64,000 nucleotides of DNA, from positions 62,001 through 126,000 of the forward strand of contig RSEH01000103.1 of the NCBI GenBank assembly GCA_006503475.1, read 5' to 3'. Position numbers and translations under genes: made by a program. The notes below the pieces were generated by a model that searched no databases, was not told the DNA's origin, and saw only the letters and a list, made by a program, of their open reading frames with translations. Source of the stretch: Stentor roeselii. Its lineage: Eukaryota > Ciliophora > Heterotrichea > Heterotrichida > Stentoridae. Below, one piece after another: positions 37,963-40,200 of the stretch (position 1 is the stretch's first letter; each line of letters opens with the position of its first letter).

Positions 37963-38397
37963 TTAATCTATTTCTATTATTTCTTGGAATTTTTTTGGGC
38001 TGTTGTCGAAAATGAAGGGAACTAGGATTTTTGGACCTAATAATTGTTTGAAGACTGGATTTGATTGAAAGATTTTAAAAATGTGGGAAGTTTGGATCTT
38101 TGAATGATTATTTTCTTTGTTGCTGGAGTTTTGAGCTAGGGTAAAAATCTCAGCAGTTAGGGTCTCAAGTGCTACAGAAATAGGCAAGGCAGCTTTTTTA
38201 CTTACCCTTATATCCTTATCACAGGCTTTCATTTGTTTAAGTATTTTACTTATAGGAAAAATCATCTGAGCCTTCGACTTTTCACTTTTTTTCTGAAATT
38301 TTCCAATATTTTCCTCCTCTTCTTTTTCAATCTTATCTTCCTCTTCTATTTCAAAAGCTTCAAGTCCTTCATCTTCCAAATCTTTCTCTGTTCTCAT
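37963..38397 (-). CDS. highly divergent H2A-like histone-fold protein
   Basis: I choose the ATG at 38395-38397, giving 144 residues; the frame is open to 38643 but that part overlaps the next gene. An acidic N-terminal tail (about 8-30, Glu-rich) replaces the basic H2A tail. Residues 43-121 follow the H2A fold in order: AQMIFPISKILKQMKACD (alpha1), IRVSKKAALPISVALETLTA (loop1 and alpha2), HSKIQTSHIFKIFQSN (loop2, alpha3) and VFKQLLG; compare AGLQFPVGRIHRLL, YLAAVLEYLTAEI and NDEELNKLLG of H2A. Of the nucleosome acidic patch, E78 and E83 are kept, while the third helix Glu is T86 and the DEE is NPV (113-115). It may be an H2A variant or a partner in a non-nucleosomal histone-fold pair. Confidence 0.7.
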   Translation of the reverse strand: MRTEKDLEDEGLEAFEIEEEDKIEKEEEENIGKFQKKSEKSKAQMIFPISKILKQMKACDKDIRVSKKAALPISVALETLTAEIFTLAQNSSNKENNHSKIQTSHIFKIFQSNPVFKQLLGPKILVPFIFDNSPKKFQEIIEID

Positions 38398-38440
38398 CTT
38401 TATAAGTGAATCTAAAAATCCTCTAAGGGGGCTTCTAAAT
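38398..38440. promoter_or_regulatory. 43-bp head-to-head spacer (H2A-like / transposase-derived gene)
   Basis: Only 43 bp lie between the chosen start codons. If the minus gene instead began at its furthest codon (38643) the two coding regions would overlap by about 200 bp; the acidic-tail start avoids this. It contains TTTATAAG next to the minus start. Too short for two independent promoters, so shared control is likely. Confidence 0.45.
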
Positions 38441-39718
38441 ATGGAGGAAAAGCTATACAAGGAAGATTCAAATAATTCCCTCGAATCACTTATTTTTACT
38501 TGTCTAAGACCCTTGGAGGGCAGCCTTGGTCTCGTGTGCTGCAACCATTCAGAGTTCTTTGAAAACTGTTCCAGTTGTTTCGATTCTCTGACTTTCGGCA
38601 TGATAAACCACAAAAAGAACCAAAAACTACTGAAAAAACTCAATCAAGAACTCAGGGCCAGTGAAAGGCTCAAGGCTGAAGTTAAACTTCTGAAAAGAGA
38701 ACTTAAAGACATACTCAGTGCAAATAAAACTGGAAAAATCGACTGCAAGGCGGACGTGCATCAACTTTTACTTGATAAGAAATTGCCGAAGAACTTTTTA
38801 GATATTTTTGAAAGTGCGGAAAAATCTCTTAGCTATATGATTAAACTGGGAACTATACAGAAGGATATGGAATGTAAAAGATGTTGCGAAAAAATGCTTT
38901 TGCAGGGGAGGGGAGGGTTTGGGTTTAATTATTATTGTGAGAGATGTAGGGTTAAACTTGATTATAAAGTTGGAACTTTTTGGGAAAAGTGCATTTTGGA
39001 ACCGAATCAGATATTGTGGCTTATGCTTTTGTGGGTGGTAAAAGCTCGAGACATCGAGATAAGCCACTTAATGGAAATATCCGTCGGCTACGTCTCATCA
39101 CTAACATCCCGAATCCGTAAAATAGTATCTCGCGAATATCTAAACTCCTTGCCAATGTTCACCGGAATAGTCGAAGTAAACATCCGTAACTTCGTAAAGC
39201 GAAAAATCGAGATAGGCAAAAGTAAAGCAAAGGAAAGATGGGTGATGATTTTAGTTGAACGTGAAAGAACCTTGGTTTACATGGAAGCACTTTCGGAGAA
39301 GTCTTTCTCATCAATTTTGAAGATAATCCAGAAAAGATGTGAAGTTGGGACAGTCATCTTGACTGAAAAGTTGGCAGTGTTCGGAAATCTGGAAAACTAC
39401 GGGTATCCGCACTATACAATAGAAAAAAATAAGGGATTTGCTTATTTGCAAGGAACAAAGTTGAATATTTCTAAAGCTTATGGACAGTGGGCTTGGATAA
39501 AACATGCGATTAAAAGGTATAATCGAACTTCGAGCTATCTTAATGACTATCTGCTGGAATTTATTTGGAGAAATAGCATGAAACATCGGTTGCAGCAAGG
39601 AGAGATTATTAGGGGATTGTTTAATACTTCTTTTGTTCTTGTTTCCAAGTGTAAAAGTGAGGAGATTCAGATTTCGAAGAATAATGAGGATGTGGATGAG
39701 GTTTACTTAAGTGATTAG
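38441..39718 (+). CDS. domesticated ISXO2/Merlin-like transposase, catalytic residues lost
   Basis: The 425-residue protein has a Cys/His cluster (CCNHSEFFENCSSC, 33-46), a short coiled coil (58-95), a zinc ribbon CKRCCEK...YYCERC (145-169), a helix-turn-helix-like stretch (DIEISHLMEISVGYVSSLTSRI) and a DDE fold of the ISXO2/IS1595 (eukaryotic Merlin) type: GIVEVNIRNFVKRK, RWVMILVERERTLVYMEAL, IIQKRCEVGTVILTEKLAVF, GYPHYTIEKNKGF, WAWIKHAIKRY and YLLEFIWRN. In active members the first block reads VEIDES and the third YSDEW; here they are VEVNIR (N247) and LTEKL (E309), and the later acidic position is not conserved. So strand transfer is not expected. The frame is intact with no terminal repeats seen, which points to a host gene kept for DNA binding. 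Confidence 0.8.
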   Translation: MEEKLYKEDSNNSLESLIFTCLRPLEGSLGLVCCNHSEFFENCSSCFDSLTFGMINHKKNQKLLKKLNQELRASERLKAEVKLLKRELKDILSANKTGKIDCKADVHQLLLDKKLPKNFLDIFESAEKSLSYMIKLGTIQKDMECKRCCEKMLLQGRGGFGFNYYCERCRVKLDYKVGTFWEKCILEPNQILWLMLLWVVKARDIEISHLMEISVGYVSSLTSRIRKIVSREYLNSLPMFTGIVEVNIRNFVKRKIEIGKSKAKERWVMILVERERTLVYMEALSEKSFSSILKIIQKRCEVGTVILTEKLAVFGNLENYGYPHYTIEKNKGFAYLQGTKLNISKAYGQWAWIKHAIKRYNRTSSYLNDYLLEFIWRNSMKHRLQQGEIIRGLFNTSFVLVSKCKSEEIQISKNNEDVDEVYLSD

Positions 39719-39941
39719 GTTTTGTTGATTCTTCTTGGTTTTTTTAGTATTTCATGAGTTTTTGATTTTTACTTATCTTCAAGATATTTGAAATTAAACT
39801 CGAGTTGCCCTGAAAGATAATCCAATCAAACCCATCTCCTAAAAACCATTAAAAAAAATCCTAACCCTAATTCCTTCACACCCTTAAAAACCTCTCCATT
39901 CTCACCAAAAAACCTGAAACCGCTCCATCCCAAAAACCCTT

Positions 39942-39998
39942 CAACCTCTTCAAACCCTTCAAACCTCTTCAAACCCTTCAAACCTCTTCAAACCCTCT
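39942..39998 (+). repeat. 19-nt tandem repeat, three copies
   Basis: Unit AAACCTCTTCAAACCCTTC. Copies at 39942-39960, 39961-39979 and 39980-39998 with one to two differences, and a partial copy before them. It is pyrimidine/A-rich and G-free on the plus strand. Probably slippage-derived. Confidence 0.85.
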
Positions 39999-40016
39999 AA
40001 CCATAAATCCACTAAA

Positions 40017-40097
40017 TCCTCAAAATCCTCAAAATCCTCAAAATCCTCAAAATCCTCAAAATCCTCAAAATCATCCAAATCATCCAAATCATCCAAA
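40017..40097 (+). repeat. 9-nt tandem repeat, nine copies in two variants
   Basis: Six perfect copies of TCCTCAAAA (40017-40070) followed by three perfect copies of TCATCCAAA (40071-40097), in unbroken 9-nt register. The homogeneous blocks suggest two separate expansions of one ancestral unit. No G occurs on the plus strand. Confidence 0.93.
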
Positions 40098-40200
40098 TCT
40101 AATCCTCACCTCTTTAAACCCTCAATTCAACCCCATTTGAAACGGCCTACATAAATCCTAAAAAAACTTCTAACAACTGACCTAAGTAATAAGTTAACAC

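Follow-up and report, generated by a model that had tools for sequence, protein, structure and literature searches.

The window (the whole stretch of DNA that was analysed, 64,000 nucleotides corresponding to C8:62001-126000 of the assembly) carries at 38441-39718 on the forward strand an open reading frame of 425 codons that runs from ATG to TAG with no internal stops, an unbroken single frame as the sequence-only reading had described it. The features of this gene and its divergent neighbour are the following.

37963..38397, - strand: histone-fold ORF, divergent neighbour, from the ATG at 38397 (PF00125, E 3.7e-6)
38441..39718, + strand: Merlin/ISXO2-derived gene, 425 aa, catalytic residues replaced (ORF, profile and alignment)
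38537..38578, + strand: N-terminal Cys/His cluster C33..H36..C43..C46 (paralogue alignment)
38873..38947, + strand: zinc ribbon C145-x2-C148 ... C166-x2-C169 (cysteines invariant in six paralogues)
39008..39145, + strand: residues 190-235, ahead of the DDE domain, resembling a helix-turn-helix (putative fold; alignment with bacterial IS1595)
39179..39181, + strand: N247 codon, first catalytic Asp column (alignments)
39197..39571, + strand: PF12762 DDE_Tnp_IS1595 match, residues 253-377 (profile match)
39197..39226, + strand: KRKIEIGKSK block, residues 253-262 (identical in L002; 9/10 codons differ)
39365..39367, + strand: E309 codon, second catalytic Asp column (alignments)
39479..39481, + strand: Y347 codon, third catalytic Glu column (alignments)

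The predicted protein matches PF12762 (DDE_Tnp_IS1595) over residues 253-377 with 42.7 bits (curated cut-off 27) and E 7.6e-11, which supports the Merlin/ISXO2-type origin that had been proposed. The NCBIfam model NF033547 (IS1595) gave E 5e-10, but its 39.6 bits lie below the curated cut-off of 75. In a Pfam search at E values up to 10, PF12762 was the only match, and DDE_Tnp_1_7, the PiggyBac domain of PiggyMac and the PgmL proteins, was not found. The N-terminal zinc ribbon that had been read by eye is indeed kept (C145, C148, C166 and C169); it has no Pfam match of its own and was called from the cysteine pattern and the alignment to bacterial IS1595 proteins. Ribbon, helix-turn-helix-like region and RNase H-like domain align to bacterial IS1595 over residues 119-402. 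A further stretch ahead of the DDE domain looked coiled-coil-like to the eye, but was not picked out by a crude heptad count. In the Cys/His cluster nearer the N-terminus, C43 and C46 are invariant across the six intact paralogues of this genome and C33 and H36 are common to the window gene and its closest relative; the cluster is possibly a second zinc knuckle. A search with residues 1-220 alone (E up to 10) recovered the same five paralogues and no other protein, so this N-terminal extension belongs to the family.

The columns of the DDE catalytic triad read N247, E309 and Y347, and the triad is therefore absent. The earlier reading had given Asn at the first position, had placed the second within TEKL and had failed to see a third acidic residue, and all three points stand. 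The triad columns agreed in MAFFT with the five paralogues, with 11 bacterial IS1595 proteins and with all 19 bacterial loci, and hhalign of the window gene plus its sister against the 11-row bacterial profile (99.8%, E 5.1e-29, residues 119-402) returned the same columns. Four paralogues (C3, C135, C339 and C20) have DDE, C61 (L002) has DKK and the window gene NEY. All 11 of the bacterial rows aligned first, a set also used for the tree and picked by eye for spread among the 19 loci, read D/D/E; the eight left out comprise five with D/D/E, L033 with D/N/E and two frames that end early. Over the 19 loci fetched this makes 16 D/D/E, one D/N/E and two frames ending before the second residue, a sample that leans towards an intact first residue because the fetching patterns included the first catalytic block. 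Since D/D/E is found in the live paralogues and in the bacterial relatives, the loss of the triad in the window gene is most simply a derived state. The second and third residues differ between the two dead genes, for which reason it is likely, though not certain, that they descend from an already dead ancestor. With these residues gone, the window protein has presumably lost its cutting activity.

By eye, the catalytic blocks gave the impression of being wholly eroded, an impression that we have replaced by tests at fixed radii, where the effect is modest. Where all four live members agree, the window gene keeps 3/16 of the columns that lie at most 3 residues from a triad position and 46/86 of the others (p 0.014). 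C61 has no such depletion (9/16 near, 44/86 elsewhere). In the control, where each live gene was compared with the remaining three, 25 of 25-27 columns near the triad and 77 of 84-103 farther away were kept. Within the DDE domain alone the depletion in the window gene has p 0.047 at radius 3 and is not significant at radii 5 (p 0.09) and 8 (p 0.17).

The gene had been taken for a lone one, a reading that was ruled out by the genome search (44.39 Mb, 522 contigs). Besides one exact copy, the protein search found five full-length relatives at 25-32% identity, a decayed place on C132 and two weak ones (C213, E 0.007, and C55, E 0.30) that are absent from the PF12762 search. No near-identical copy was found, the next best place being 32% identical (these counts are lower bounds). 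The family thus has six intact genes (window, C61, C3, C135, C339 and C20), four of them with DDE, and its members range from 381 aa (C3) to 425 aa (the window gene). The C135 match holds one TAA, which falls shortly before the ATG that opens the 385-codon frame taken for this gene. In a tree of 17 rows (six paralogues and 11 bacterial proteins) the six form one clade apart from the bacteria (support 100/99), within which the window gene and C61 are sisters (99/96) and the four DDE-intact paralogues group together (97/96). The zinc ribbon offers a second difference between the live and dead clades: its knuckles are CxC in the four DDE-intact paralogues (L003-L006) versus CxxC in the dead pair. 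Among the four bacterial rows with a ribbon, three have CxxC and L024 has one CxC.

Searching the genome with PF12762 gave at least 15 places, the six intact family genes and nine shorter ones, seven of which have stops inside the match. One of the nine, on C132, is a decayed family copy, 56% identical to the C135 gene (L004) over 114 aa, with stops and a frame change. The other eight (L015, L016, L017 and L019-L023, on C11, C40, C171, C165, C511, C195, C247 and C9) are short stretches, six with stops in the match and two in short open frames, and the DNA around them has 25-34% GC versus 36-43% at the six intact family loci. Some have a classical Merlin look (e.g., the motif NTIEDTW), and the eight are probably old Merlin transposons left in the assembly.

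The window gene lies among ordinary genes, as had been noted. On the left are an ORF without any family above threshold and a NACHT-type ATPase, and on the right are genes of AN1 zinc finger, PARG-like and E2F type; the next gene on that side ends 482 bp away. The adjoining ORF on the left is a histone-fold gene (PF00125, 27.6 bits, cut-off 26.4), whose longest open frame (37963-38643, reverse strand) overlaps the start of the transposase gene and which, counted from the ATG at 38397, begins 43 bp from it in the opposite direction. Two adjacent minisatellites are found downstream (39934-40099), with units of 19/9 bases (AAACCCTTC...) and 9 bases (AAATCCTCA, 10.6 copies). In line with the absence of terminal repeats claimed before, no inverted repeats of the Merlin type (with terminal GG) were found at the gene. 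In ungapped tests, inverted matches between its flanks were equalled by 36 of 40 shuffles at 400 bp and by all 40 at both 500 and 1000 bp, and the flanks of the five paralogues were likewise no better than shuffles (7 to 34 of 40 as good). Of the inverted pairs around the gene (25 listed of 28), five straddle it whole, with the left arm inside the neighbouring coding ORF.

The intact frame, the lack of detectable terminal repeats and the position among host genes of what we infer to be a ciliate somatic genome are the traits of the domesticated DDE_Tnp_IS1595 genes of ciliates. Together with the replaced triad and the lack of near-identical copies they make a domesticated, non-catalytic protein probable, much as the sequence-only reading suggested. 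We think it about an even bet (roughly 0.5) that the gene encodes a host-owned, non-catalytic DNA-binding and assembly subunit working beside its live paralogues, by analogy with PgmL and PiggyMac. The reasons are that the triad is lost while the scaffold of zinc ribbon, helix-turn-helix-like region and core is kept, and that four DDE-intact relatives exist in the same genome. A former ISXO2/Merlin-type transposase, now owned by the host, would be unable to cut DNA; its zinc ribbon and helix-turn-helix region would recognise or hold DNA, and its dead RNase H-like core would dock with catalytically complete members of its own family, all of this during the development of the new somatic nucleus. 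DNA binding, docking, developmental expression and a role in DNA elimination are thus all predicted properties.

Almost as serious is the possibility that the protein is a DNA-binding factor outside excision and genome editing altogether, acting on chromatin or transcription in a sequence-specific way through nothing but the DNA-binding parts of the transposase; we regard this as a genuine, if tentative, alternative. The zinc ribbon and helix-turn-helix-like region have been kept while the catalytic columns were lost, and the gene stands head to head with a histone-fold gene at only 43 bp. Besides, Loxodes is described as having no extensive DNA elimination and still has two PF12762 proteins related to those of Blepharisma and Stentor (PMC11441545), so genes of this kind can persist without any part in elimination. 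However, the RNase H-like core is also kept, which goes beyond the needs of DNA binding alone, and the reported expression of relatives also speaks against this reading: in Oxytricha, expression of the family is nearly confined to conjugation (PMC3558436), and in Blepharisma DDE_Tnp_IS1595 is among the domains of the nine transposase-domain genes within the 100 most up-regulated genes in development (PMC9942806).

Another explanation would be that the gene is an old inactive copy, functionless and heading to decay, as might be suspected from the replacement of all three catalytic residues, from the longest end branch among the six paralogues (0.92) and from a codon adaptation to its neighbours that is coding-like only weakly (0.690 versus 0.648 +/- 0.014 in shuffles) and the lowest among the 8 genes compared. 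We find this very unlikely, since the 425 codons are open and the protein appears to have been constrained relative to its sister while the synonymous codons were randomised. The window gene and L002 (C61) share 117 of 376 aligned residues, and at the identical ones (M and W left out) the codon is the same in 35 of 109 cases, with 42.6 expected at random. The block KRKIEIGKSK is extreme in this regard, with all 10 residues but only 1 of the 10 codons in common, and an identical run as long was obtained in 45 of 20,000 shuffles. Simulated neutral decay left 5 of 300 frames free of stops at 90% identity to the start and none of 300 at 80%. The C132 copy illustrates what happens without constraint, at less divergence, and the eight other short PF12762 stretches also show what decay looks like. 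The chance-level codon use at residues shared with the dead sister, the neutral simulation and the decayed C132 thus argue that the gene is functional. Synonymous sites between paralogues are saturated (pairwise pS 0.71-0.84), so that no dN/dS value is usable. What these data indicate is that selection has kept the window protein since the split from its dead sister, a two-paralogue measure that is not proof of selection today.

It has also to be considered whether the protein might be a working nuclease that employs other acidic residues, E309 among them, as Metnase does with its DDN active site (PMC4036204). E309 is acidic and stands in the second position, and the bacterial IS1595 frame L033, which has Asn in that same column, also departs from D/D/E, judging by its sequence. 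With Asn at the first position and Tyr at the third, though, at most one of the three triad positions is acidic, and such an activity is hardly to be expected. Finally, a still or recently mobile Merlin element, for which only the transposase domain above the family threshold would speak, is rejected in view of the replaced triad, the gaps of 43 and 482 bp to adjoining ordinary genes, the lack of a near-identical copy (32% at best) and the lack of detectable terminal inverted repeats at any of the six genes.

As to the genome in which this family is found, which is probably that of Stentor roeselii, the 26 ORFs checked end in TAA (13), TAG (7) and TGA (6), and gene GC is 36-41% in the 8 genes compared, a better match to the published value of S. 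roeselii (37.3%) than to that of S. coeruleus (32.8%; PMC10384029). In Blepharisma UGA encodes tryptophan, so the use of all three stops argues against that genus, and introns of 15 bases are described (PMC9942806). The neighbour of paralogue C3 has one clear 15-base interruption that begins with GT and ends with AG; counting against the assignment to S. roeselii, GTA..TAG words of 15-16 bases are not in excess in the window, and a splice scan gave no 15-base candidate and one of 16 bases. No telomere was recognised by eye at three contig starts and one contig end. Among other transposase families searched at E up to 1, DDE_3, MULE and DDE_Tnp_4 gave no match, and neither did PF13843 (PiggyBac). 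This last profile also failed to match any control genome, so the zero result does not amount to absence of PiggyBac, and a weak pair of PiggyBac matches has been reported in S. coeruleus (PMC9942806). DDE_1 gave one open-frame match and one broken. The former, L047, lies on the same contig outside the window (C8:8771-9283), an open frame of 465 codons with a pogo/CENP-B type domain (E 1.3e-21), and is possibly another domesticated transposase. Twelve Piwi-domain places (E below 1e-59) suggest a well-developed small-RNA system. Outside this genome, two scans confirmed no viral relatives of the window protein, the plasmid search gave one record (an IS1595 transposase with 24.5% identity over 51% of the query), and solved structures offered nothing credible (best E 0.36).

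The window gene illustrates well how a Merlin-derived host gene, catalytically dead by its sequence, has been maintained in a family that also has DDE-intact members. The sequence-only reading took a host gene of Merlin type to be new. This is not so, as similar domesticated genes are already reported in Oxytricha (PMC3558436), Stentor (PMC8101967) and Blepharisma (PMC9942806); the gene is instructive as one more case, but does not represent a kind of its own. In S. coeruleus and S. roeselii, DDE_Tnp_IS1595 (Merlin-like) ORFs of 381-425 aa, with PF12762 at the C-terminus, no TIRs or TSDs found and a DDE not conserved in several, were described with domestication proposed (PMC8101967, 2021). 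Our family resembles them in length, C-terminal PF12762, lack of detectable TIRs and short intergenic gaps. Because the span of 381-425 aa is the same, the window gene very likely belongs to the set of ORFs counted in that work. The contig RSEH01000003.1 named there fits C3, although our PF12762 search gave no match on C98 and that report names contig 98 as second, so that the two assemblies are likely, short of proof, to be the same. The passages of PMC8101967 on these ORFs give no live/dead clade split, per-gene residue losses, N-terminal Cys cluster or constraint test, and neither the two clades nor the residues of the window gene are described in the full-text ciliate literature on Merlin/IS1595 that was covered (main texts, under some of the licences). 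The same source describes IS1595 groups as differing in the zinc finger, with Merlin and IS1016 lacking one; the window protein has the N-terminal CxxC...CxxC of the zinc-finger groups. Bacterial IS1595 proteins with a ribbon (e.g., L024, from a Levyibacteriota MAG) share with it the ribbon, the helix-turn-helix-like region and the RNase H-like domain. They differ in keeping D/D/E (16/19), and the rows aligned lack the long N-terminal extension of our family.

Along similar lines, 11 DDE_Tnp_IS1595 proteins, seven of which keep the triad, are reported as proposed domesticated genes in Oxytricha trifallax (PMC3558436, 2013). Like the window family they are macronuclear, lack TIRs and include members with and without the triad, which is given there as DDD and not DDE. 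The DDE_Tnp_IS1595 genes reported in Blepharisma stoltei (PMC9942806, PMC9942856; 2023) are, by their description, also those of a heterotrich, macronuclear, without terminal repeats and with some triads complete. Blepharisma also has PiggyMac.

A parallel in working would be Paramecium, in which the essential proteins PgmL1-5 lack the full triad and assemble into complexes with PiggyMac (PMC6143343). There too several triad-less paralogues are kept beside a catalytically complete one, but those belong to the PiggyBac family with complexes and essentiality shown, and ours is an ISXO2/Merlin family. If the analogy were pushed further, germline DNA excision in a Stentor-like ciliate would be run by a Merlin-derived machine instead of PiggyBac, with four DDE subunits that cut and two, the window gene and its sister, that do not. 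We consider this unlikely, but if true the live-plus-dead arrangement of Pgm and PgmL would have arisen twice, on the second occasion from a different transposase superfamily. What one genome does offer is a Merlin-derived family split into catalytically complete and dead clades, both with intact frames, a situation that makes testable whether ciliates have time and again put together their excision complexes out of live and dead copies of whichever transposase was domesticated. And since Loxodes keeps related genes without extensive elimination, this family could be used to separate host functions that predate genome editing from those that serve it.
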